Virus record (IMG/VR): IMGVR_UViG_3300042387_000746
Location: 1 to 32,997 of that record
Length of the DNA stretch: 32,997 bases
Reading direction: 5' to 3' (one strand)
DNA from: a virus
Below the pieces are notes generated by a model that saw only the letters and a program-made list of their open reading frames with translations, had not been told where the DNA came from and searched no databases. Below are positions 278-32,997 of the stretch, piece after piece (the first letter of the stretch is position 1; every line of letters starts with the position of its first letter). Position numbers and translations under genes: made by a program.

Positions 278-1093
278 TTATGAATTGAAAAGGTCATCAA
301 AAGCTGCTGCTACATCATCAACTTTTTTAGCTGGTGCTGCTGGTTTTGATGGGGTTGTATCGAACGGTACTTCATCTTCATCTTTAGCCGTTGATGAAAG
401 GGTTTGGGCAGATGCCGATACCTCATCATCAGAAGTTCCAGATGGATTTAACCAACCTTCTAATACATTTTTCAATTCTGCATAAGTTAATTCTGAATAA
501 AGTTCAGTAATTTCCTTTTGGGAATTTAAGAATTTATCCGTTTCTTCTTTTGAAGTTGCCATTGGAGTTTCCTTTGGTTTAACACGGATAGTTGTTACAG
601 GGTAAGAAGTACCACTGTCTTCAGCCGATACTACTTCAACAGTAATATCTCTACCTTCATTTGGGTCAGTAATATCACCATAATCAGGATCTGCCATATA
701 ACCAAGAATTTCTTGATATACAGTTTTTCCAAAGCCCCAGAATCTTACGCCTTCACCTTCTTCACCTCTTACCAATACAGGTACGAATGTTCTAAGCTTT
801 GGCTCCATTTTCTTGGCCGCTTTCCAATCTTCCTTGTCACCCATTCTTTTAAGTTTATCAGCAAACTCAACAATAGGGTCAGGTCTACCAAAACTCATCG
901 GAGATAAGTAAGATTTGTTGTTAATGTTGTAGTGAAAATAAAGTTCAATAAAAGGATTTTCTTTATTGAATTTGTACGGCACCAATCGGATTGTGTGTTT
1001 ACCGGGTGCTGGTTTCCAAAGTTCTACAGTTGTTCTTTGGGTGTTTTGCAGTTTGTTAAGTCTGCTCTTAATTGCGTCTAAGTTAATAGCCAT
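278..1093 (-). CDS. 32: gp32-like single-stranded DNA-binding protein, zinc ligands absent
   Basis: This 271-aa protein is the T4 gp32-type ssDNA-binding protein, which coats replication and recombination intermediates and recruits partners through its acidic tail. Residues 31-58 (GKHTIRLVPYKF... then a YFHYNINNKSY-like strand) match the start of the gp32 core OB domain. The C-terminus (about 235-271) is acidic and Ala/Pro-rich and ends DDLFNS, as expected for the regulatory tail. T4 gp32 carries a His/Cys3 zinc site directly after the first strands. Here that region reads SPMSFGRPDPIVEF and the whole protein has no cysteine, so the zinc site is lost. It is preceded by two strong Bacteroidota-type promoters and followed 15 nt later by uvsX. 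Confidence 0.9.
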   Translation of the reverse strand: MAINLDAIKSRLNKLQNTQRTTVELWKPAPGKHTIRLVPYKFNKENPFIELYFHYNINNKSYLSPMSFGRPDPIVEFADKLKRMGDKEDWKAAKKMEPKLRTFVPVLVRGEEGEGVRFWGFGKTVYQEILGYMADPDYGDITDPNEGRDITVEVVSAEDSGTSYPVTTIRVKPKETPMATSKEETDKFLNSQKEITELYSELTYAELKNVLEGWLNPSGTSDDEVSASAQTLSSTAKDEDEVPFDTTPSKPAAPAKKVDDVAAAFDDLFNS

Positions 1094-3501: not shown

Positions 3502-3903
3502 TTATTTGTTTTTTGTGAAATGCCCAGAATTTACTAATTCAAAGGTACTTCCGTTTCTATCTATAAACTGCCAATAGGCTTCTTTTAATTCAAACCATTC
3601 ATCAATATGGTCTAATACTTGTGTTGGTGTAAAATCCGAACAACTATATAAATCAAATTGAAACATAGCTGGACTTTCGTTATCCCAAACATGAATACTA
3701 GCATGCGATGTTGCTAGCGTTACCGTTCCAGTTATTCCTTCGTTGCCCGGTTCATTAACATAAACCGATGTAGGACCAGCAACTACTTTCATTCCTACTT
3801 TATTAACTAATTGTCTAAACCATTCGTTTAATACGTTTTCGGTTTGTGGTGGGGTTTTTATGTATCCTTTTACAAGTAAATGTAAATGATTTGGTATAAA
3901 CAT
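3502..3903 (-). CDS. speD: S-adenosylmethionine decarboxylase-like protein (SpeD family)
   Basis: The 133-aa sequence matches the short prokaryotic AdoMet decarboxylase, a self-cleaving pyruvoyl enzyme that makes decarboxylated AdoMet for spermidine synthesis. The core GITGTVTLATSHASIHVW (56-73) corresponds to the family motif around the cleavage site. Ser66 would become the pyruvoyl group, His71 is the processing histidine (spacing of 5 kept) and Cys88 in DLYSCSDF is the catalytic cysteine, with two extra residues before it. The Glu normally preceding the cleaved Ser is Thr65 here, so autoprocessing may differ. A GAGGAA ribosome-binding site within the end of the upstream gene, 10-15 nt before the ATG, supports the start. 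SpeD genes are known in T4-like cyanophages. A non-catalytic homologue is possible. Confidence 0.65.
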   Translation of the reverse strand: MFIPNHLHLLVKGYIKTPPQTENVLNEWFRQLVNKVGMKVVAGPTSVYVNEPGNEGITGTVTLATSHASIHVWDNESPAMFQFDLYSCSDFTPTQVLDHIDEWFELKEAYWQFIDRNGSTFELVNSGHFTKNK

Positions 3904-8735: not shown

Positions 8736-10019
8736 TTATAATTTTCCGTAATCTAATCCCCAACTAGCCTTAACAGGAAACCCACTTCCTTCAATTATTT
8801 CCTTCAATCCTTTAACAATATCCTTATCTATACCAATAGGAATATCAAAAAGAAACGAATCGTATGTATAAAGGCAAAATCGGATTCCACTCCCACTCAC
8901 ATAATCTAATATCTTTCGCATCACATCCACATTCATTTCAGTCTCAACCGCTTGTAGGAGATAGTTAAATACCTTTTGAGCATTCGGTTGTTCTATCCAA
9001 TCTAATGGAATATGACGGTGTGGTGTTTGTAAGTACCCTTGCCTTTGTGTTTCAATCCATAGGTTATCAATGTAATCAGCTACCTTATCAAAGTATGGGA
9101 TTTGGCGGAACTCATCATCGATACCACCATACAATAATTGGAATGTTATCCCCTTCGATTCATCTACACTACAACCATATTGGTCTGCTAACCATTGGTG
9201 CATGTTCCCATTCGGTACATCAAATCCAATCAACTTAGCAATCAAGCGTGGGTGATATGCATTGTAATCCATTTGTAGAAATATCCCATCGGAAACGAAC
9301 ACATCTCTACTACCATCGGTTTTGTTTAGGGCGGCATAGTTCACACCACCATGTCTATTGGATGGTCTACCTGTCACCGTAAATGGATTGTATTCGGTGA
9401 ATACTCGATTATCGGAGGAAAGTTGTTTGTGGGCTTGAGGCCATCTATCAATAAATTTTTTCCCATCGACCCGAATCCCATATCGTTCAATATCTGAAAG
9501 GGTAGGTAAGAAAATATCGTTATACCAATTATAAGTTTTATATTTTAGAGGAATACATTTTACGAATTGTGGTTCTATTGCTTCCACAAGTTTAAGAATG
9601 GGAATGGATTGAATGATGTCCTCTTTATAACCCCTATGTAAAAGGGGAGCTACTAAGTGTTGTAGTGGTTGAGAATAATCTATTGTTTTACCATGCTTCA
9701 AGAAATAAGCAGTATCAACATCATTCAATCCTTCCCTTACATTTGTAAAAGATTGTAGTAGCTTTTTCTTTTGAAATACCCACTTTTCTCCGGCAGTATT
9801 CAACACACCTTCTATTTCCTCATTAGAGAGTGATACAGCGTCTGTGTGTTGTTGTGGTATGATATACTTGTCCGATTGGGTACTAACGAATAGGAACGAT
9901 ATACGAGTGTTTTGTGGGTGCTTATCATTATCTACCCACATCGGATACCAAATAGATACTTCGGTTTCCAACAAATCTCTCAATTCGTTTAATTCTGCAA
10001 TAGATTCAATAATTCTCAT
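8736..10019 (-). CDS. Divergent family A DNA polymerase (PolA-like), 427 aa
   Basis: The polymerase core is recognisable from motifs. TGRPSNRHGGVNYAALNK (near 216-233) corresponds to the TGRLSSxxPNLQNIP region. Motif A is QMDYNAYHPRLIA with metal-ligand Asp251. Motif B is KGITFQLLYGG with Lys289, Phe293 and Tyr297 at canonical spacing. Motif C is YTYDSFLFD with Asp387. Several key residues differ: the steric-gate Glu of motif A is His256, the Arg four residues before the motif B Lys is missing, and the HDE of motif C is YDS. The N-terminal 150 residues may be a decayed exonuclease fold (DNDKHP; DVDTAYFLKHG). The ATG at 10019 is chosen because an upstream in-frame ATG at 10100 would lie inside the tmRNA 3' end and behind its terminator. 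It probably replicates or repairs phage DNA. Confidence 0.82.
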   Translation of the reverse strand: MRIIESIAELNELRDLLETEVSIWYPMWVDNDKHPQNTRISFLFVSTQSDKYIIPQQHTDAVSLSNEEIEGVLNTAGEKWVFQKKKLLQSFTNVREGLNDVDTAYFLKHGKTIDYSQPLQHLVAPLLHRGYKEDIIQSIPILKLVEAIEPQFVKCIPLKYKTYNWYNDIFLPTLSDIERYGIRVDGKKFIDRWPQAHKQLSSDNRVFTEYNPFTVTGRPSNRHGGVNYAALNKTDGSRDVFVSDGIFLQMDYNAYHPRLIAKLIGFDVPNGNMHQWLADQYGCSVDESKGITFQLLYGGIDDEFRQIPYFDKVADYIDNLWIETQRQGYLQTPHRHIPLDWIEQPNAQKVFNYLLQAVETEMNVDVMRKILDYVSGSGIRFCLYTYDSFLFDIPIGIDKDIVKGLKEIIEGSGFPVKASWGLDYGKL

Positions 10020-10033
10020 TGGAACAAAGATAC

Positions 10034-10070
10034 AAAAAAAATCCCAAACTACCAAATAATAGTTCGGGAT
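10034..10070 (-). terminator. Intrinsic terminator of tmRNA
   Basis: On the minus strand an 11-bp stem (ATCCCGAACTA with TAGTTTGGGAT, one G-U pair) and an 8-nt loop are followed by a run of eight T. It starts 5 nt after the tmRNA 3' end and finishes 15 nt before the polymerase start codon. Confidence 0.9.
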
Positions 10071-10075
10071 TGTTG

Positions 10076-10462
10076 TGGAGGTGATGGGATTCGAACCCAT
10101 GTCTTACAAAGTAACCATAATACCAGCAAATTACACGTTTAGGATAAGGTTTAATCTTATTCACCTTCCAAAATAATTGGGGCCGAATGGTTAGTTCAGC
10201 GATTCCACCAACCTATCAGTTTTAGGGAGCCGATAAGTAATGCTCCGGGTTGTTCACTTCTATTTAAACCCCACGAGTGATGCGGGTGGTGATTATGCTG
10301 CTACAGCGTAATCGTAAGCTCCTACAAATGCCATAGCATCTTCGAAGTTCCAAGTAGATAATTCTACGTCGGTTATTGTTTTGTACAGATTTAAAGACAT
10401 CTAGCACTTCTGTCTACGTGTGATACTACAATTCTCATTGTAATCAATTCCGAGTCACCCCC
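10076..10462 (-). ncRNA. ssrA: tmRNA (transfer-messenger RNA), phage-encoded
   Basis: This is a complete one-piece tmRNA of 387 nt. The acceptor stem GGGGGTG (10462-10456) pairs with CACCTCC (10083-10077, one G-U pair), with discriminator A at 10076 and no encoded CCA. The T-arm is ATGGG-TTCGAAT-CCCAT. Helix P2 is supported by GTAGTATC with GGTATTAT and ACACGT with ACGTGT. Stems fitting the pseudoknots are visible, e.g. AGACA/TGTCT before the tag and, after it, GGAGC/GCTCC interleaved with TATC/GATA. The tag reading frame (10322-10293) encodes GAYDYAVAA and stop, after the alanine carried by the RNA. tmRNA frees stalled ribosomes and marks nascent proteins for proteolysis with SmpB, which is not encoded here. 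It has its own promoter and terminator between the baseplate and polymerase genes. Confidence 0.95.
10293..10322 (-). other. tmRNA proteolysis-tag reading frame (GAYDYAVAA-stop)
   Basis: Codons GGA GCT TAC GAT TAC GCT GTA GCA GCA TAA. The glycine resume codon matches my recollection of Bacteroidota tags, which begin with Gly. The C-terminus is AVAA rather than the usual ALAA recognised by ClpX. The resume codon is inferred from alignment to known tags. Confidence 0.8.
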
Positions 10463-10475
10463 ATATTGATAAATA

Positions 10476-10507
10476 CAAATATACGAAAAAATAATTAAAT
10501 TTCCAAA
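10476..10507 (-). promoter_or_regulatory. tmRNA promoter (TTTG-N20-TATATTTG)
   Basis: TTTG at 10507-10504 and TATATTTG at 10483-10476 on the minus strand are 20 nt apart, with the same CGTATATTTGTATTT core as gp32 P1. The mature 5' end (10462) is 13-14 nt beyond the -7 element, which leaves a short leader for RNase P to remove. Confidence 0.78.
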
Positions 10508-16164: not shown

Positions 16165-18579
16165 TTATTGAGTTTTAATTATGATAGATGCACTCACTCC
16201 TTTATTATTACCACTAGCGTTTACCAATGAACGCATATTTATTTCCTGTCTTGCATTTCCAAATTCGTTACCATCTTTAAATGGTCTCACAACTAACAAT
16301 GCCGTATTCTCTCCTATACTTCCTTGGTTCAACGCAACCATAGTTACTCTATATTCAGATTGTTTCAAACGTCCGTGGTTTATTATACGTGTTATTGGTT
16401 GACTATACAACGTTTCATTATCTATTATTTTTTGATTATCTACATAAACATCTATTCTATCACCATCTATTTCTGCAGAGTCATAAAAGTAAAGATGTAT
16501 ATTAGTACTTTCTTTTGGTACTACTATTGTTTTCACAGTGTTTATATCCGTACCAGTTATTTGTGATATATCAGGCGGCGGTGGTGGTGGTAGTGGTGGC
16601 GGCGGCGGTGGTGGTAGTGGTGGCGGCGGTGGCGGCGGCGGTACTACTATATTTACATCTGGTGTTGGTGCTGGCGCACCACCAAGCATACCTCCTGAAG
16701 TTGGAGGTGTTGGAGGTGGTGGTGGTGGAGTTGGCACAGGTGGTGGTGGTCCAGTTACCGGTGGTGGTGGAGTTGGCGGTGGTGGCGGCGGTGGCGGTGG
16801 TGGCGGTGGCGGTGGTAGCGGTGGCGGTGGTGGCGGCACTGCTGGTATAATATTAGGTATACCTGTTAATTTTGTAGGAGTAGTACCAATTGTTTTTGTT
16901 GTAGTTATATTTGGCGGTATAGTTTGTACCGGATTTTGTTTCTTCGTAGGAATGGATGGTGGTGGAGGTGGTGGTGGTGGCGTTGCTTTTGGTTTACATT
17001 TACCAAAATCATACAAAGAACTTTCATTAACATTTTCTCTACCAAGTAAGAATTTAAATGTCAATTCAACTTCTATAATCATTGGTGCTTTATAATAATC
17101 ACTATCCCCACCATTCATACCAATTTCCCAAGGAGCATTATCAGGAGCAGTATATGTTAAAGATTCAATAAATCCCAACTTATCAATATACATGTCACCA
17201 ATTGTCATTTTAATAAATGGTGCAGTTGCTTTTAATGCTGCGCCGGAATATCTTTGTGGGTATGCTAATCTACTTAACTCTCCTAATCGTTTCCACATAG
17301 CTTGATGTTCATCAACAGCTTCGGAAAATACTTTAAAATTCAAAGTTACTGCTCTCTCAATGTGTCCATATGAATAAAATGGCAATGGGTTACCAGCAAA
17401 TGCTTTAGATTCCCAGTTTGGAGAAAATACTTCAGATAAACTCGTTAATGTTGCTCTAAAATAAAGATAATTCGATGATGCTAAACCTATAAATTTAAAA
17501 GGTATAAAATCAAAACTATCTATTGGTTTCTTTGTAAATGGATATAATACTTTTCCTGCTGCATTTGCAGTTGCTACACCCAACTTATTCAACATATCAC
17601 CCTTCAAACCCATACCAAAGCCTCTAGTAGTATGAATTGTATTCTTTTTTCTTACTTTGGTATATTCAGTACCATTCATAAGAGAAAAAGTATTTATGTA
17701 ACTAGTTATTTTATTTATTGGAGGATTGAATGTTTTGACTTGCGGTGGTAATTTTTGTCCTCTTAATCTATTTAAATTTCCCCCTTTTGAAGTAAATAGC
17801 ATAATAGTTGATAAATCATTTCTATCACCTATAATTGTATTAGTATAATCAACCGATTTTGAATATAATGCTCCACTATTATACCTCCCACCCGATTTTG
17901 CTAAATTTTGCCCTGCTTCAGTTCTACTACCAAATAATGCTTTACCTAATGCATTTTTTGCAGCAGTTATTCCGCTTGATAATAATCTATTAGGTACTCC
18001 GCTTAATCCACCTTTTGTGTTATCTGCCAAAAACCTGCCTGCCCAACTTCCACTACTACCATCCTTTAAAGTTTTTAAAGTTGTTAATAAATCCGTTTCT
18101 AATCCTTTTTTAAATATATCGTTTTGTACAACTCTTGTTGGGATTAATTTTTCAGGAAAAGTTACACCAAGTTTACTTAAAAGGTTTTTACCAAACTTTT
18201 CAATTTTTTTTATAAATCCACCTAATAAACCATTTGTATTACTACCATTAGATGCTGCTCTCATATCATCAAGCATATTGGTAGTTTTTCTTTTCAATCT
18301 AAATAAATCAGTACCATATAAAGCTGGCCCTGATAATAACATTAATGCGTTTAATCCAGTTACTTCTTCTTCAAATCGTGTCTCTTTATCTTTAACCGAA
18401 AGTTTTTTTCGTATTCCCCTTTGTAATTTGAACGCTGGAACTAATAATGGATTAGATGGTTCGTTATCAATATCTTTACTATTTCTTATCGCAAAATGCT
18501 TTTGCGCAGTTTCAACTTTACCATTATCTTTAAATGATATTTGTTGAGATTGAAATAGTTCTAAAATTGATTTTCCCAT
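16165..18579 (-). CDS. Tube-initiator-like baseplate protein, paralogue 2, with polyproline linker and C-terminal beta domain, 804 aa
   Basis: This is a paralogue of the downstream gene. N-terminus MGKSILELFQS; shared KKLSVKDKETRFEEEVTGLN region and GLLGG; tube-like domain at about 360-520 with YFRATLTSLSEVFSPNWE, DEHQAMWKRLGELSRL and PWEIGMNGG...APMIIEVELTFKF. Residues about 527-668 form an extreme proline tract with several PPPPPP runs, the longest 14 consecutive prolines. This is broken only by short segments such as PPTSGGMLGGAPAPTPD. A C-terminal domain (about 669-804) follows, with IHLYFYDSAEIDGDRIDVYVDNQKI; it looks like a beta-sandwich of a kind seen in surface proteins. The first ATG at 18579 shares one base with the stop of the tape measure gene. 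The tract would need EF-P for translation. Confidence 0.75.
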   Translation of the reverse strand: MGKSILELFQSQQISFKDNGKVETAQKHFAIRNSKDIDNEPSNPLLVPAFKLQRGIRKKLSVKDKETRFEEEVTGLNALMLLSGPALYGTDLFRLKRKTTNMLDDMRAASNGSNTNGLLGGFIKKIEKFGKNLLSKLGVTFPEKLIPTRVVQNDIFKKGLETDLLTTLKTLKDGSSGSWAGRFLADNTKGGLSGVPNRLLSSGITAAKNALGKALFGSRTEAGQNLAKSGGRYNSGALYSKSVDYTNTIIGDRNDLSTIMLFTSKGGNLNRLRGQKLPPQVKTFNPPINKITSYINTFSLMNGTEYTKVRKKNTIHTTRGFGMGLKGDMLNKLGVATANAAGKVLYPFTKKPIDSFDFIPFKFIGLASSNYLYFRATLTSLSEVFSPNWESKAFAGNPLPFYSYGHIERAVTLNFKVFSEAVDEHQAMWKRLGELSRLAYPQRYSGAALKATAPFIKMTIGDMYIDKLGFIESLTYTAPDNAPWEIGMNGGDSDYYKAPMIIEVELTFKFLLGRENVNESSLYDFGKCKPKATPPPPPPPPSIPTKKQNPVQTIPPNITTTKTIGTTPTKLTGIPNIIPAVPPPPPPLPPPPPPPPPPPPPPTPPPPVTGPPPPVPTPPPPPPTPPTSGGMLGGAPAPTPDVNIVVPPPPPPPPLPPPPPPPLPPPPPPDISQITGTDINTVKTIVVPKESTNIHLYFYDSAEIDGDRIDVYVDNQKIIDNETLYSQPITRIINHGRLKQSEYRVTMVALNQGSIGENTALLVVRPFKDGNEFGNARQEINMRSLVNASGNNKGVSASIIIKTQ
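16571..16998 (-). repeat. GC-rich polyproline-coding low-complexity tract
   Basis: On the minus strand this stretch is largely CCA/CCG codons and encodes residues about 527-668 of the 804-aa baseplate paralogue. A run of 14 Pro lies at about 16773-16814. Synonymous mixing of CCA and CCG suggests selection for protein sequence, not simple slippage. It stands out as GC-rich in an AT-rich genome. Confidence 0.9.
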
Positions 18580-26030: not shown

Positions 26031-29000
26031 TTATTCTTTTTTGTTTATTAGTATATTATTCAACATTTCTTTGATATCAGAAATTTCTTTATTTTGATTT
26101 TCTATAATTTTTTGTTGTTCTTTTATAGCTTCAACTAATAAAGGTACTACCTTATCATATTCAATTGTTAAATAATTTTCACCAGTTTTAGAACCGATAA
26201 TATTATTGTCTTCATCAAACTTAGTATCAAATGGTGCTAAGTGTACAATTTCAGGTATAACCGATTGTACTTCTTGTGCCGATAGACCTAATTGTACTTT
26301 AGTTTCTTTATAACCAAATGTTTTTGCCAAATCATTATTAACGTAATAGAAACCATTTAATTTAGAAAGTTTTCCTAAAGCATCTTCGATAGGTCCTAAC
26401 TTAGTTTTTAATCTTTCATCAGAATAGTAAGCGATGATGTTATCTTGCGCAAATATCCATCCGTAAGCGTATAAATAGTTAGCGTTCCATCTATAAACCC
26501 TTGAATCAGTTCTACCATAGAAGTAATATCCAGTATCATATCTATCGTAGTAAATGTTTGCTCTAATATCATTTTCAACAAATACTGTATTACCATTGTG
26601 CCAGTTAAGATACATTGGATAACCATTACGAGAGTCAATGTGTAAGTTACCATTTGATGTAAACATACTTGCCCAACCATCAACTCTTTCGTTTGTACCA
26701 ACTCTTAAATAAGCTCCCCAATACCAGTTAGGTCCGTGAAGTGTACCACCTCTCATTCTTAAACCCTGATTATCAGTATTATGTGGGTCTAAATAGTATC
26801 CAGTATCTTGGTTATCATAGAATATAGGTCCTCTTACAGAACCACCTGCTTCTAAGTATTGGTTTACATATACACCCCATCCTCTACAAGACATTCTCTC
26901 CGAACCAGCATAGTACATATAGAAGTTAGTATCCCAATACCAAACCCATCCATATGAATTATCATGCACACCACAATCACCACCTCTACCCATAAAGACG
27001 AATCTACTACGAATACCATATCCACTCCATCCATTTCTACCACCACCATAAGTTGCTATGTTACCATATGAGTTACCCTCACATTCAGGTGACCATATAC
27101 CATGTCCGTATGATTCAAAATACAACCCACAACATCCTTGAGGTCTAAACCAGTTGTTTGCTAATATAGCTGAAAATTGTGAATATCCATTAGGGTTTGC
27201 ATAGTATCCAGTATCATTTCTATCATAGAAAATAGTACTATAAATTCCACCAACACCATAGATATCATATCCATTCATTTCCAAATAACCATAGAATCTC
27301 ATTGGGTTATTTGTGTAATAGTTCATATAGATACTGTGTGAGTATGAATCTATGTGTAAGTTACCACCTAAGAAAATTCTACCATATCCATTTCTAGACC
27401 ATAATACTCCATCTAATCTTATTTCACTAAATTGTGATTGTGAATTAGGGTCTACATAATATCCTGTATTATTTGCATCGTAATACATTCCGGCATATAA
27501 AGCTCCTCCACTACCATCGTTACGGTCATGCATTGCAACAGTTGTCCAACCAGACCAACCACCCCAGGCATTTCTAAATCTTAAGTTACTTATCGGTCCA
27601 CCCACTAACTGCCAACCAGTGTTACTATTTCCACCATATGCATAGTGGAAAGCTTGTGTACCAACCCAATGGCTTGTTCCACTAGGTTGATTTGGTGGGT
27701 TTGACCAAGAATCAATAAAGCCCGAACCCCAAGAGGCCACCGAGTTCATATCAGTAGTTCCCCATCCCATTGAACCTACCCAATAACCAGTATCTCCAGT
27801 ATAATCATTTCTACGGAAGTTACCTCTACCGGTCAATCCAATTCTCATTTTGGAATAATCATCCAATCCATTCCATCTACTATCACCATCACCATTAAAA
27901 TAAAATGAAGTATTGTGGTCATAATATATAGAAGCTCTAACATCAGCATGTGCATATGCACCATGTGACCTCATTGACATTCTATCAGCCCCTGCCCAAT
28001 AAAGGTTTAGTTCAGCTCCACTCATATACCAAACCCAACCTCTAGCCGAATCATGCACACCAACGTTATCACCGGTAGTACTCATAAACGTATAACGAGA
28101 ACCTATACCATATCCACTCCATCCATTTCTACCACCGCCATAAGTTGTGATATGTCCATATGGATTACCTTGTTGTTCTGCTATTACAAATCCTCTACCA
28201 TATGAATTCCAATACATGCCCAACGCACCATTGATATAATACCAATCGTTTATTGTTAACCAGTTAAAGTTAGAACCAGATGCCGGGTCTACATAGTAAC
28301 CTGTATTATTTGAATCATACATTATATATGCGTACAAATAATACCCTGGATTAGAATTACTCATTACAAATTCCAACCATCCAGATGTAGAACCACCCCA
28401 CTTACCTCTTGCCCAATATCTATTAGCAAGAGCATCGTGTGCTCCTACCATCATCCAACCATACGCAGTTCCACCTCCTGATGTTGCATAGTGTTGTCCG
28501 GATACGATACCTTGAGCGTGAACATATCCACCACCTTGTGGGTGACCTGTTCCACCTCCCCAAATATCCCATCCAGCAAAACCACCTTCCCAAGCAGTGT
28601 CCCAGTTACCATAAGATGTACCCCATCCGTTTGTACCAGTCCAATGGTTTGTATCACCAGTAATATCTCTACGATTTCCTCTTTCTCTACCTAAGTTAAA
28701 TGCCCCTCTACGAGTATAATCAGTAACTGCGTAAATATTTGATGTAGATAATGCATCAACATAATATCCTGTATTATCGTAATCATACATTATCTTAGGT
28801 CTAATACCACCACTACCAGGTATTTGTATAGTATTATTACTTTCACCCATGTACATTGTCATAGATGAGTTGTTACCATACCAATGTTGTGCTTCAACTA
28901 CATATGCTGAGAAATCCCAACGAGGTTCATTGTTTACGTTGTTTACTAATTTAATTCTATTACCAACAATATAGTTTGTACGAGATGTTGATGCAAAGTC

Positions 29001-32000
29001 ACCATAGTATCCAGCATCATTTGAATCATAGTAAATTGGAGCGTACATAGCACCTCCAATAGATACAGTGCCACCTATAAATGCTCCACCAGCAAATCCA
29101 AAACGAGAATAAGTTGTACCATTGTTTCTTAATGCTAAGTGATGGTCATATCCACTTCCATACTCATAACCCAATCCGTACATATTACCTAATGGCCAAC
29201 TTTCACCAATTGTCCAAATTACTTTTGATGATGTACCATTAACGTTGTAATCACCCATCAAACCACCACTGTTTCTACTTACCAAATAGTTACTATACCA
29301 CATTCTACCGGCAAAGTTACCTTCATTTAAGTTAGAATAAGAAGCAGGGTCTGTGTAGTATCCCGTGTTGTTATTATCATAAAATATAGGTGAACGCATT
29401 GAACCATATGCCCATAAATTACCAGATGTATCACCTTCTACAACATTACTACCACCAGAATTTCTAAAAATAAAATAGCTTGCGTATTGAAAATACCAGT
29501 TACTACTATGATATTGAATTTTACCTGCAAATTCACCATCCCAAGAAGATGAGTCTGCTCTCCAAGAACCAACAGTTCTTAATGCAGTTGTTGAGTTAGG
29601 GTCTAAGTAATATCCACTATTATTTGAATCATAATAAATTGGCGAATACATAGCATTTCCTGCTTGTATGTTACTACCAGCATAGAATGATAATGGAGTT
29701 CTTAAATTACGAAGGTCACCAGAGATATATGAGTAAGAATCTGATTCAATTGCTACTGAATATCCTTCGCCCACATTCATTACACCATCGTAATATGTAC
29801 CATTTTGTATTTTACGAAGAACAACTTGTCCATAAGACCAAGATGATGAACCATTACCAATTACGATACAATATCTGCCATCTTTAGTACCAACTCTTAC
29901 AGGTTTATCAGTTTGTCCAACTACTTCTGCATTTATGTTATACCACTGTCCATTCCAATTATGTCCACCAACTATTACGGTTGCTGCTGCATTTCCATTA
30001 TATTCATAAATGTCAATATGAGCATGAATCATACCATAGTTACCAGTTCCACCAGGAAATTTGATAACAACTGCTCCAGTTGCACCAGTTGCTCCCCAAT
30101 ATGCCACAGGTCTACCAACTATATTATTCATAGCAATACCACCCGCTATTCTCAATGAAGTTGCGCTTGTATTTGGGTCTAAATAATATGAGGTATTGTT
30201 TCTATCATAGAATATAGCTGAACGTATATCATTTTGATTGATATAAGTTCCATCATTAATTGTTATTGGTGCATTTAAATAAAAGTTTGGTCTATCTGTA
30301 TAGATATGAGCATGACTTGTATTTGCAGGACCAAAGTTTATATAACCAGAATCCGTTCTAAAGTGTACACCCCAAGTTCCAGCCCCATCGAACCTACCAT
30401 TATTAGTTGATGTACCAAATCTTAAAACGTTATATACAGATGTTGATGCAGGGTCTGAATAGTAATTGGTATTATTATAATCATAGAATATAGGAGAACG
30501 TAATGAACCAAATGCAAATAGGTTTGAACTACTATCAATATATCCTCTTTGGCCATTTCCAGTTACAAATTCAATATAAGTTCCATCCGAACCCAATGAT
30601 AAATATGTAGATGAGTAAACACCAGGTCTACCCCAAGCTGCTCCTAATCGTACATCACTAACACCATTACCTTCAGCGTTTTGAACTCTAAATCCACTAT
30701 CATTTGTAGTATATGTTACTCTATTAGATGTACCACCTCTCATTACGAATCCACCATTTGCAGGATTTGTATAATATGTAGTATCATCCGTATCATAGAA
30801 TATTGGTGCATACATTCCACCAGATTCCATTCTAGTAGTAGTACCATAAACATTAATTACACCATTAACCTCCAAACGTTTGTTCATATAGAAAATAGCT
30901 CTATCAGTTTCCATATGGAAATAAGAACTATTCATTGAACCAAAATCACCATATCCAGTTGAAGTTGATATTCTTAATGAATCAGAACTACCCGGTTGTA
31001 ATATTGCGTATCTTTGGTCAGTTGTACCATGCACATATCTAGTTCCAGAATGTAAATGTATCTTTGAATAAGTTTGTTCTGATTTATATAATTTTAATCC
31101 ACAAATATGAACAACACCAACGTTAGATGCATAGTTTATTAATAAAACAGGACTAGCGTATTGTGTACCAGATATAAACTGATTCAAACTTCCACCTACT
31201 CCACGAATTATACCACTTACTTTATACCACTGTCCATCGTTTCTGCTATTGGTATCAAATTCTTCACCAGCAGCACCCCAATATCTTTGTGTATTTCCAA
31301 ATGATGAGTTTGCTGAATTGTACATTGTCCAACCCAAATATAATCTTTGGTCGGTATCACCACCATCAATTACTTTAATCCAACATTCAAAAATATATTC
31401 ACTATTAACATCTACTTTAATTCTTCTACTATCATCAAAACCAAAATATCCAGTTACTTTAAAACAACCTTCAGCTGGTGCTGTATTATCATTAACTTTT
31501 GTAATTACCGTTGAAGTAGTACCCAATTGAGCTCTAACTTCTGCATCTGTCATTTGGTCAGTTATATTATAGAACGAACCATTATCGATATTTGCTGTAT
31601 AGTTTTCAATTGTACCGCCCGTTACAACACTAAATCCTCCTACGTTTATATTTGCAAAAGTAACCGAATCCGTAGTTCTTACGTTTTGGTCCATCGCATA
31701 TAATTCATTAGCTCCTTGCCCAGTATTAACTGTTGCGAATGTTACACCATCAGTAGAACGAACCGGCTGGTCCATTGCGTATAATTCATTAGCTCCTTGT
31801 CCAGTATTAACAGTAGCAAATGTTACACCATCCGTAGTTCTTACGTTTTGGTCCATTGCGTACAATTCATTAGCTCCTTGCCCAGTATTAACTGTTGCGA
31901 ACGTTACTGCATCTGTTGTTTGAACATTTTGATTCATTAAATAAACTTCAGTTGCACCTTGTCCCGTATTAATTGTACCACTAAGAACTACGTTACCACT

Positions 32001-32997
32001 TACGTTTACGTTATCATCGAATGACCATCTGTCATTTCCTTCATCCCAAATAAATTGTTTTGTTGCTGCATTACCTCTCTTAACTTCTATACCAGAGTTT
32101 TCAGTTGGTGCAGTTGATGCTCCAATATCTGCATTAAGTGTAATAATATTATCACCTATATTAAGAGTTGTTGTATTAATATATGTTGTAGTACCACTTA
32201 CAGTAAGGTCACCACTAATTGTAGCGTTACCAGTTACCGCAAGAGTTGTACCATCAAATCTTAAATTTGCTTCAACGGTTGCATTTGGTGCAGTTCCGTT
32301 TAATGTGATTACACCATTATCAGTTGTACCAGTTAATGCTAATAATCCAGAAGAACCGCTACTTCCACTACTTCCGCTTGTACCAGATGAGCCAGAAGTT
32401 CCGGATGAACCACTACTGCCACTTGTACCAGACGAACCTGATGTGCCAGACGAACCTGATGTACCACTACTTCCAGAAGTTCCTGATGACCCAGAAGAAC
32501 CTGATGAACCACTACTTCCACTTAAACCAGAAGTACCACTACTTCCCGATGAACCAGAAGTTCCCGATGAACCGGATTTTCCGCTTGTTCCCGATGAACC
32601 AGAAGTTCCCGATGAACCAGAAGTTCCAGCAGTACCATCTTTACCAGAAGTTCCCGATGAACCAGAAGTTCCAACAGTACCATCTTTTCCTGATGTACCA
32701 CTACTCCCAGATGTGCCAGACGTTCCGCTACTTCCAGAAGTTCCCGATGTGCCAGATGAACCAGAAGTTCCATCCTTACCTGCCAATCCACTTGAACCAG
32801 AAGACCCGGATGTTCCATCTTTACCATCTGAACCAGATGAACCAGAAGTTCCTGATGTTCCAGACGTTCCCGAAGAACCAGATGTGCCAGAAGACCCAGA
32901 TGAACCTTCAAATCCATCTTTACCACTACTTCCAGAAGTTCCAGATGTGCCAGACGTTCCATCTTTTCCAGTTGAACCATCTTTTCCCGATGTTCCA
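26031..32997 (-). CDS. Giant tail fibre with collagen-like repeats and S74 chaperone domain (N-terminus outside window)
   Basis: The frame is open to the right edge, giving at least 2321 residues; the apparent start at 32786 is only a TTG inside the repeats. In order from the N-terminal side: collagen-like GTS/GSS/GKD triplets (32997-32346); a beta-rich part with SGDLTVSG and NIGDNIITLNAD; four 27-residue repeats (31976-31653); a lectin-like region; thirteen YDxNNTGYYxDP-type modules (30812-26518) with larger domains between them; and a C-terminal S74 intramolecular chaperone (about 26430-26031) with YSDERLK, LGLSAQEVQ and a trimeric coiled coil IKEQQKIIENQNKEI. The S74 Ser-Lys dyad is expected to cut itself off after trimer folding. 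It is a receptor-binding fibre. Upstream virion-attachment residues are not visible. Confidence 0.93.
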   Translation of the reverse strand, partial: GTSGKDGSTGKDGTSGTSGTSGSSGKDGFEGSSGSSGTSGSSGTSGTSGTSGSSGSDGKDGTSGSSGSSGLAGKDGTSGSSGTSGTSGSSGTSGTSGSSGTSGKDGTVGTSGSSGTSGKDGTAGTSGSSGTSGSSGTSGKSGSSGTSGSSGSSGTSGLSGSSGSSGSSGSSGTSGSSGTSGSSGTSGSSGTSGSSGSSGTSGSSGTSGSSGSSGSSGLLALTGTTDNGVITLNGTAPNATVEANLRFDGTTLAVTGNATISGDLTVSGTTTYINTTTLNIGDNIITLNADIGASTAPTENSGIEVKRGNAATKQFIWDEGNDRWSFDDNVNVSGNVVLSGTINTGQGATEVYLMNQNVQTTDAVTFATVNTGQGANELYAMDQNVRTTDGVTFATVNTGQGANELYAMDQPVRSTDGVTFATVNTGQGANELYAMDQNVRTTDSVTFANINVGGFSVVTGGTIENYTANIDNGSFYNITDQMTDAEVRAQLGTTSTVITKVNDNTAPAEGCFKVTGYFGFDDSRRIKVDVNSEYIFECWIKVIDGGDTDQRLYLGWTMYNSANSSFGNTQRYWGAAGEEFDTNSRNDGQWYKVSGIIRGVGGSLNQFISGTQYASPVLLINYASNVGVVHICGLKLYKSEQTYSKIHLHSGTRYVHGTTDQRYAILQPGSSDSLRISTSTGYGDFGSMNSSYFHMETDRAIFYMNKRLEVNGVINVYGTTTRMESGGMYAPIFYDTDDTTYYTNPANGGFVMRGGTSNRVTYTTNDSGFRVQNAEGNGVSDVRLGAAWGRPGVYSSTYLSLGSDGTYIEFVTGNGQRGYIDSSSNLFAFGSLRSPIFYDYNNTNYYSDPASTSVYNVLRFGTSTNNGRFDGAGTWGVHFRTDSGYINFGPANTSHAHIYTDRPNFYLNAPITINDGTYINQNDIRSAIFYDRNNTSYYLDPNTSATSLRIAGGIAMNNIVGRPVAYWGATGATGAVVIKFPGGTGNYGMIHAHIDIYEYNGNAAATVIVGGHNWNGQWYNINAEVVGQTDKPVRVGTKDGRYCIVIGNGSSSWSYGQVVLRKIQNGTYYDGVMNVGEGYSVAIESDSYSYISGDLRNLRTPLSFYAGSNIQAGNAMYSPIYYDSNNSGYYLDPNSTTALRTVGSWRADSSSWDGEFAGKIQYHSSNWYFQYASYFIFRNSGGSNVVEGDTSGNLWAYGSMRSPIFYDNNNTGYYTDPASYSNLNEGNFAGRMWYSNYLVSRNSGGLMGDYNVNGTSSKVIWTIGESWPLGNMYGLGYEYGSGYDHHLALRNNGTTYSRFGFAGGAFIGGTVSIGGAMYAPIYYDSNDAGYYGDFASTSRTNYIVGNRIKLVNNVNNEPRWDFSAYVVEAQHWYGNNSSMTMYMGESNNTIQIPGSGGIRPKIMYDYDNTGYYVDALSTSNIYAVTDYTRRGAFNLGRERGNRRDITGDTNHWTGTNGWGTSYGNWDTAWEGGFAGWDIWGGGTGHPQGGGYVHAQGIVSGQHYATSGGGTAYGWMMVGAHDALANRYWARGKWGGSTSGWLEFVMSNSNPGYYLYAYIMYDSNNTGYYVDPASGSNFNWLTINDWYYINGALGMYWNSYGRGFVIAEQQGNPYGHITTYGGGRNGWSGYGIGSRYTFMSTTGDNVGVHDSARGWVWYMSGAELNLYWAGADRMSMRSHGAYAHADVRASIYYDHNTSFYFNGDGDSRWNGLDDYSKMRIGLTGRGNFRRNDYTGDTGYWVGSMGWGTTDMNSVASWGSGFIDSWSNPPNQPSGTSHWVGTQAFHYAYGGNSNTGWQLVGGPISNLRFRNAWGGWSGWTTVAMHDRNDGSGGALYAGMYYDANNTGYYVDPNSQSQFSEIRLDGVLWSRNGYGRIFLGGNLHIDSYSHSIYMNYYTNNPMRFYGYLEMNGYDIYGVGGIYSTIFYDRNDTGYYANPNGYSQFSAILANNWFRPQGCCGLYFESYGHGIWSPECEGNSYGNIATYGGGRNGWSGYGIRSRFVFMGRGGDCGVHDNSYGWVWYWDTNFYMYYAGSERMSCRGWGVYVNQYLEAGGSVRGPIFYDNQDTGYYLDPHNTDNQGLRMRGGTLHGPNWYWGAYLRVGTNERVDGWASMFTSNGNLHIDSRNGYPMYLNWHNGNTVFVENDIRANIYYDRYDTGYYFYGRTDSRVYRWNANYLYAYGWIFAQDNIIAYYSDERLKTKLGPIEDALGKLSKLNGFYYVNNDLAKTFGYKETKVQLGLSAQEVQSVIPEIVHLAPFDTKFDEDNNIIGSKTGENYLTIEYDKVVPLLVEAIKEQQKIIENQNKEISDIKEMLNNILINKKE
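26518..30812 (-). repeat. 13 copies of a YDxNNTGYYxDP fibre module
   Basis: Thirteen copies with consensus (S/A)PIFYDSNNTGYYxDPxS are spaced unevenly along the fibre. Examples are IFYDTDDTTYYTNP, IYYDSNNSGYYLDP, MYYDANNTGYYVDP and IYYDRYDTGYYFYG. They are probably short stalk or coil repeats between receptor-facing domains. Confidence 0.9.
31653..31976 (-). repeat. Four tandem 81-nt (27-aa) repeats in the fibre
   Basis: The unit is TVNTGQGANELYAMDQNVRT + TDGVTFA. Units begin at 31976, 31895, 31814 and 31733, exactly 81 nt apart. The first (N-terminal) copy is the most diverged; the other three are nearly identical. Confidence 0.92.
32346..32997 (-). repeat. Collagen-like Gly-X-Y repeat region of the fibre
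   Basis: The coding strand is built from GGA/GGT/GGC-TCT-TCA type 9-nt units that encode GTSGSSG repeats with scattered GKD triplets. The DNA is highly self-similar and open to recombination-driven length change. It continues beyond the window. Confidence 0.92.

Follow-up and report, generated by a model that had tools for sequence, protein, structure and literature searches.

The DNA analysed here is the viral record IMGVR_UViG_3300042387_000746, of 32,997 nt, and the window is the whole of it, positions 1-32,997. Its gene set is T4-like and includes a gp32-like ssDNA-binding protein, a baseplate wedge protein, a tape measure, a tail sheath, an endolysin and a DNA polymerase whose relatives are annotated as family A. 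Next to the endolysin gene, an S-adenosylmethionine decarboxylase-like protein is encoded at 3502-3903 (PF02675, E 1.1e-13); a structural protein with long polyproline stretches occupies 16165-18579, and a very long fibre-like protein, with GTSGSSGTSG repeats at its start, occupies 26031-32786. The subject of this report is a tmRNA gene that lies directly before the polymerase gene on the minus strand. The parts of the RNA and the adjoining gene are as follows:

8736..10025, minus strand: DNA polymerase gene (phrog_17, E 7e-14), directly downstream of the tmRNA
10076..10462, minus strand: body of the tmRNA gene, with G1 at 10462 and the discriminator A at 10076, placed by RF00023, ARAGORN and alignment
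10417..10443, minus strand: 5' strands of P2 in three segments, pairing with 10104-10137
10383..10415, minus strand: pseudoknot 1 as drawn, AGACA/TGTCT and GTGC/GTAC
10370..10293, minus strand: predicted tag frame of 25 codons and TAA, DVELSTWNFEDAMAFVGAYDYAVAA, with the resume codon GAC after AATAACC
10293..10322, minus strand: nine codons for GAYDYAVAA and the stop, only the 3' part of the 25-codon frame
10254..10286, minus strand: pseudoknot 2, CCCGC/GTGGG with TCACT/AGTGA
10212..10246, minus strand: pseudoknot 3, GGAGC/GCTCC with CTTATC/GATAGG
10168..10200, minus strand: hairpins of the PK4 region, GCTGAA/TTCGGC and CCAA/TTGG

A preliminary description of this DNA had placed a complete tmRNA at 10076-10462 and proposed a covariance-model search. 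When this search was run, RF00023 matched the minus strand at 10462-10073 with 71.3 bits (E 4.8e-26), above the gathering score of 47, and ARAGORN also called a one-piece tmRNA at the locus, so that the proposal proved correct. The score is low relative to the 117-205 bits of Bacteroidota tmRNAs (among the matches listed), a group in which 277 of 296 genomes scored above the cut-off and 19 gave no match above it. Among 14 relatives of the window scanned with the same model, 13 matched, and the only miss was L002, which is without the gene. The predicted fold of the RNA was better than that of 99 of 100 shuffled sequences (z -3.1).

In order to examine the structure across the family, P1, P2, PK1-PK3, the PK4 hairpins and the T-arm were drawn by hand on the window and counted on 25 distinct sequences. 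Standard pairs were found in 90.3% of cells, as compared with 37-45% when the partner strand was slid. Cells changed on both sides numbered 162 against 48.6 in shuffles, and none of 500 shuffles reached 162. Four of the five covariation measures exceeded all 500 shuffles, the number of further pair types was matched by 252 of them, and all five lay above the slid versions. The 7-bp acceptor stem and the T-arm were each paired in 100% of cells, with changes on both sides, and the three segments of P2 were paired in 96.7, 93.3 and 85.0% of cells, with both-side changes in the first and third and none in the second. The G-U at the third acceptor pair (G3-U70), which is the signal for alanyl-tRNA synthetase, was kept in 25/25 sequences. 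Our counts thus agree with the acceptor stem, T-arm and P2 pairing noticed earlier. Pseudoknot 2 was paired in 90.4 and 92.7% of cells, with both-side changes, and pseudoknot 3 in 77.2 and 86.3%, with such changes in 10 of 11 pairs. The two PK4-region hairpins were paired in 98% of cells each, the second PK4 strand having no place in the drawing. Pseudoknot 1 as drawn was paired in only about 70% of cells, and by eye other members seem to pair differently there. In the window CAA follows the discriminator and CCA is not encoded; CCA is encoded in 16 of the 25 aligned sequences. CCA can be added after transcription, and an encoded CCA is no strict requirement.

The distribution of the gene was assessed in loci fetched by the polymerase protein. 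We used the best 80 of 105 such relatives, which are partly redundant, and together with the window copy (L001) these gave 81 loci. ARAGORN found a tmRNA in 67 of the 81 (best 80 of 105 relatives plus the window), 42 of the 67 being distinct. A profile HMM made from these, and thus built from the same loci that it searched, added six complete copies and four truncated at contig ends (L023, L035, L046, L059). Three loci (L069, L080, L081) start inside the polymerase gene and were excluded as unjudgeable. Accordingly, the tmRNA is present in 76 of 77 testable relatives among the best 80 of 105 polymerase loci, and in these 76 it lies upstream of the polymerase match at a spacing of 46 to 1,189 nt. 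A sequence pattern for the PK4 region further retrieved 25 stretches from viral contigs, 18 from contigs already seen and 7 new; this tmRNA is present in 25/25, each with a tag of the family type. Blastn of the tmRNA locus against named phages gave no match. These results show that in this T4-like phage lineage the tmRNA gene is nearly universal. Phages often integrate at ssrA, and on this ground the locus might be read as the relic of an attachment site or as host chromosomal DNA captured by the phage. We regard this as scarcely credible, given the same synteny with the polymerase gene in the 76 of 77 testable relatives (best 80 of 105), a tag unlike the host tags seen, and T4-like neighbours; no host genes were seen flanking the tmRNA locus.

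L002 is the one testable relative without the tmRNA, although its upstream DNA is present and its polymerase is 93% identical; since so close a relative is without the gene, the tmRNA is not essential there. A 132-aa frame (L002:3571-3969) lies there, separating the upstream gene from the polymerase gene, and the latter retains a promoter-like TTTGG...TATCTTT. Starts similar to that of the 132-aa frame come after the tmRNA in L006, L039 and L076, and therefore the RNA of L002 seems to have been lost, not replaced. The preliminary description had called tmRNA genes rare in phages. This stands for phages at large, with a tmRNA in 402 of 18,146 phage genomes, given as 2.3%, according to a passage in PMC9004378, but it fails within this lineage.

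We then considered the tag. It had been described as nine codons, GAYDYAVAA, beginning with Gly, and only its end withstood analysis: AVAA forms the last residues of a predicted 25-codon frame in which that Gly is codon 17. The resume codon GAC of this frame is tmRNA position 93 (window 10370), and the GGA of the Gly is position 141 (window 10322). PK1 ends at position 80, which leaves 12 nt before GAC and 60 nt before GGA. In E. coli, according to the portion of PMC2481249 consulted, the resume codon also lies 12 nt after PK1, and A86 sets the frame four nucleotides downstream. GAC has an A at -4 (AATAACC), whereas the context of GGA, ATTTGTA, has none; an A at -4 precedes the resume codon in 155/155 usable host tmRNAs, and the phage family and host tmRNAs have contexts such as AATAACT and AATAAAC in common. 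An open frame of 23-26 codons was found in 74/74 tmRNAs covered, the window included (among the best 80 of 105 loci). It opens 3 nt after AAUA in 68 and after AACA in 6 of these 74, and ends with AVAA in 53, AYAA in 19 and AIAA in 2, each followed by a stop (same best 80 of 105 loci). The search patterns for the tag all require an A at -4; 12 of the 74 escaped each of the first two patterns, and none escaped the third. The 74 tmRNAs carry 19 distinct tag peptides.

The part of the frame upstream of the last nine codons bears the marks of a coding sequence. Its pN/pS is 0.447 in the tag frame as compared with 1.163 and 1.787 in the other frames, a figure derived from 23 distinct tags of 62 read, in sequences that are not phylogenetically independent. 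In column shuffles 0/200 were as low, the minimum of 0.434 lying only just above the observed 0.433. Members differ in tag length by whole codons, and the extension follows the consensus E-[LM]-S-[TS]-x-x-[FYW]-[EDG]-x-x-M-x-[FW]. These features point to purifying selection on the upstream part of the frame, and to a conserved predicted tag of about 25 amino acids with AVAA at its C-terminus. The stretch might instead be a small protein gene of 35 aa, MSLNLYKTITDVELST...AVAA, that only overlaps an RNA relic, and in the window the frame does open with an ATG right after a stop. That ATG is missing in other members (for example L003, L007, L010 and L029), and both sides of the RNA helices covary, so that an independent ORF was rejected and this explanation appears extremely unlikely. 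For the window ARAGORN itself gives the tag VNNPEHYLSAP, which we rejected, as it is located in the PK2-PK3 region and not at the resume codon GAC. Across 67 members of this tmRNA family (among the best 80 of 105 loci), the program called the long tag 54 times and a different, downstream tag 13 times; these 13, the window included, are miscalls.

To compare the tag with those of hosts, as the preliminary description had suggested, 155 host tmRNAs were used, almost all of which have Bacteroidota titles or come from Bacteroidota. The comparison is weighted toward short tags, as 120 of the 170 host loci came from a pattern selecting GE..YALAA tags; one of these is titled Limnohabitans, so that the set may include some from outside Bacteroidota. 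The remaining 50 loci were not selected by tag, 30 being the best-scoring of the 296 genomes and 20 hand-picked from the list; one host set of 53 loci includes three from pattern-selected genomes. The 155 exclude two host tmRNAs for which ARAGORN gave implausible tags. Host tags were 9 aa (135), 10 aa (19) or 12 aa (1) long; the loci not selected by tag gave tags in 49 of 50 cases, again of 9 (29), 10 (19) or 12 (1) aa. The 49 ended in ALAA (27), RLAA (8), AMAA (7), SLAA (5), AMTA (1) or AYAA (1), and none in AVAA. The end of the phage tag is indeed absent from these 49, as the suggested contrast with Bacteroidota would have it; host ends vary, however. A change from ALAA to AVAA is in itself of little note, since the third residue from the end varies both in the family and in host tags. 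Nine residues is the commonest host length (135/155, and 29/49 in the loci not selected by tag), which would suit a tag of only GAYDYAVAA preceded by a non-coding spacer. This is very improbable in view of the same-frame coding constraint upstream, the length changes in whole codons, the lack of an A at -4 before GGA and its distance of 60 nt from PK1. With the 25-codon reading, a conserved extension of about 15 residues is predicted to be the striking difference from host tags.

The signals around the gene were examined with respect to its expression, and comprise the following:

10476..10507, minus strand: putative tmRNA promoter, TTTGG-N19-TATATTTG, of the -33/-7 type of Bacteroidota sigma-A
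10034..10071, minus strand: putative tmRNA terminator of the rho-independent type, a hairpin with a T-run, seen in the sequence
10025..10056, minus strand: putative polymerase gene promoter, variant TATCTTTG, overlapping the tmRNA terminator
278..1093, minus strand: gene for the gp32-like ssDNA-binding protein (PF08804, E 1.1e-13)
1183-1214 and 1274-1305, upstream of the gp32-like gene: putative promoters TTTGG-N19-TATATTTG, of the same class as that of the tmRNA
2613, 4363, 8722, 22427, 25451 and 26004, one strand: motif TATTTATA (coding strand), 19-59 nt upstream of six gene starts

The tmRNA promoter is situated 14-45 nt before the mature 5' end and resembles the Bacteroidota consensus, -33/-7 TTTG and TAnnTTTG, as given in passages of PMC2483708 and PMC9723704. 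The full pattern occurs at three sites in the window against 0.05 expected, and 0/100 shuffles reach three, for a pattern that was defined after the sites had been seen. When the second G is omitted the count is 4 against 2.42 expected (19/100 shuffles), which is not above chance. In 40 distinct regions upstream of tmRNAs of the family (best 80 of 105 loci), TTTGG is found with TATATTTG in 20 and with TATATTTA in 19, that is in 39/40; L045 has neither in the stretch examined, and its 5' end was misplaced by ARAGORN. A hairpin and T-run similar to the terminator occur in most of 37 distinct spacers of relatives (best 80 of 105 loci). The terminator and the polymerase promoter are intertwined, the hairpin loop being the -33 box (TTTGG) and the T-run the spacer of the promoter, and this overlap recurs in many relatives. 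The dedicated promoter and terminator described before are thus found, at 10507-10476 and at about 10071-10034.

A different motif, TATTTATA, lies upstream of six other genes, that of the sheath among them. Six of its eight occurrences are upstream of genes, all on one strand (binomial P 4e-7 for position); its number, 8 against 6.72, is not above chance. It is a candidate motif for late promoters in this phage. The preliminary description had suggested that the tmRNA may act during late infection. As the promoter class of the tmRNA is common to the gp32-like gene and, in a variant form, to the polymerase gene, and six genes carry the other motif, late expression is disfavoured. The gene is probably expressed with the replication genes, before or apart from the late genes, early or middle expression being likelier than late. 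A near-match to the motif, TATTTATC, just upstream of the tmRNA leaves room for some added late expression.

With regard to the host, the T4-like gene set and the sigma-A-type promoter are in line with the earlier picture of a T4-like phage with Bacteroidota-type signals. The hosts are most likely Bacteroidota, as suggested by the promoter type and, weakly, by TTGA in place of TTCGA near the 5' end of the phage tmRNA, a replacement seen in at least 106 of 157 host tmRNAs, mostly pattern-selected. The sheath protein counts against this, being 48% identical to that of a Microcystis phage and 40% to that of a Flavobacterium phage. Named relatives are likewise mixed, comprising Flavobacterium phage immuto and Microcystis phage Mel-JY01; no tmRNA above the cut-off was found in Mel-JY01 (a 17-bit fragment only) or in immuto (nothing). 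A scan of genome contigs with the polymerase alignment and two peptide patterns yielded 266 stretches and no relative, and named no host.

We also searched for partner proteins. No SmpB was found in the window, in 13 family contigs or in 3 named phages, the window and the family contigs being possibly incomplete; as the window and these 16 other records gave none, host SmpB is probably needed. No ClpP gene was found in the window or the 13 family contigs, and among 15 records only LR756508 has one; no RF-1-type domain was found in the 15 records, the window included. A self-sufficient phage module for trans-translation, which was also considered, is therefore unsupported.

Taken together, these findings suggest that a T4-like phage lineage, most likely of Bacteroidota hosts, has a functional one-piece tmRNA that works through host factors, a reading to which we assign a probability of about 85%. 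Host RNA polymerase would transcribe the RNA together with replication-class genes, and host enzymes would trim it and add CCA. Once charged by host alanyl-tRNA synthetase, it would be brought by host SmpB to ribosomes that have stalled on broken or non-stop mRNA. Resuming at GAC, translation would add Ala-DVELSTWNFEDAMAFVGAYDYAVAA to the stalled chain, and the ribosome would be freed for phage translation. A C-terminal A-A fits recognition by ClpXP, and the tagged product would be degraded, most likely by host ClpXP via these residues. The acidic N-terminal extension probably alters the handling of the product, as a longer protease initiation region or as a second recognition site. The RNA could instead serve as a competitor that titrates or replaces host trans-translation, a decoy for SmpB or ribosomes not meant for tagging, and the failure to find a phage SmpB would imply competition with host tmRNA for this protein. 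For a decoy there would be no need to conserve an open tag, a stop codon or a resume context, and all three are kept. As the tRNA-like domain, resume context and tag are intact, real tagging is preferred and the decoy is considered improbable.

What the extension does for a tagging RNA is a matter for more tentative proposals. The N-terminal part of the tag may be a specific second signal, recognised by an adaptor, a protease or another partner from host or phage, so that products stalled during infection would be sorted otherwise than those bearing the tag of the host tmRNA. This is consistent with conservation of the extension across the family (pN/pS about 0.45), with host tags of only 9-12 aa (n=155), and with a net charge of -5 in the four variants computed. 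Against it, no ClpP or RF-1-type gene was found in the window or 13 family contigs. In addition, a survey of 120 viral stretches, collected by a generic 5' pattern, gave 97 ARAGORN tmRNAs in 96 stretches and none in 24. Their tags were of 8-18 aa in 87 cases and 22-31 aa in 10, some of which may be ARAGORN errors or host DNA. These 10 indicate that long tags exist in other viruses, and as their sequences differ from that of the present tag, length alone may matter. We therefore put forward with reserve, as a possibility less likely than its alternatives, that the phage re-programmes host trans-translation by a two-part tag, with a separate sorting signal in its conserved N-terminal half, which is acidic and perhaps amphipathic. 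If so, chains stalled during phage replication would be routed differently, by another adaptor, faster unfolding, or another protease or partner.

Phage tmRNAs are already known, and the new part is the conserved long tag. The lineage combines a near-universal tmRNA, a replication-type promoter and a long tag that appears to be under purifying selection and is unlike the host tags examined; therefore an extra function of the phage tag is testable by tag-swap. In the literature searched we met no other phage lineage with a near-universal tmRNA and a conserved long tag unlike host tags, which is not to claim that none is in print. Phage tmRNAs are listed in PMC4131195, with those of huge phages in PMC7162821 and of Bradyrhizobium phages in PMC12656738, as far as the portions consulted go. 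The RNA described here shares with the bacterial one-piece tmRNA (ssrA, RF00023) the G3-U70 acceptor, T-arm, P2, PK2, PK3 and a putative PK1, the A at -4 and a tag ending in AA and a stop. It differs in its tag of 23-26 codons, as against 9-12 aa in hosts (n=155), in an RF00023 score below those of the Bacteroidota listed, and in a CCA that is not always encoded.

Among phages of Bacteroidota, passages in PMC8776804 and PMC11590407 report a tmRNA in the flavobacterial phages Cellulophaga phage Calle and Maribacter phage Panino. When a Flavobacterium tmRNA was compared by blastn with named phages, 3 records matched, including Chryseobacterium phage MA9V-3 (PV245944), which likewise has a tmRNA; there, however, a permuted form is called (L413:2448-2806) with a 17-aa tag, GNVIDINKYVAKLEVAA, unlike the host tags seen. 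The huge phage LR756508 (484 kb) comes close in having a homologous sheath and polymerase, a tmRNA (L205:1501-1944) and a long tag, read by eye as about 35 codons, ...NNADYESAGFTAEDFAQMDGESLYHGSERKPAAV, where ARAGORN gives GRRKPLSW. It differs in that its tmRNA is far from the polymerase gene, its tag ends in PAAV, and a ClpP homologue is present elsewhere. OM43 phage Melnitz also has a tmRNA downstream of a putative early promoter, but a two-piece one with a glutamine riboswitch, according to the part of PMC9004378 consulted. Mycobacteriophages of the Bxz1 type and Bacillus phage G likewise show ssrA in large phages (from a portion of PMC4131195). Beside its tmRNA, phage G has a tRNA cluster in which ARAGORN calls a tRNA with the stop-type anticodon TTA (L414:1373-1446). 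Its tag, as given by ARAGORN, is of 13 aa, AKLNITNNELQVA, unlike the tag of 23-26 codons in the lineage described here.
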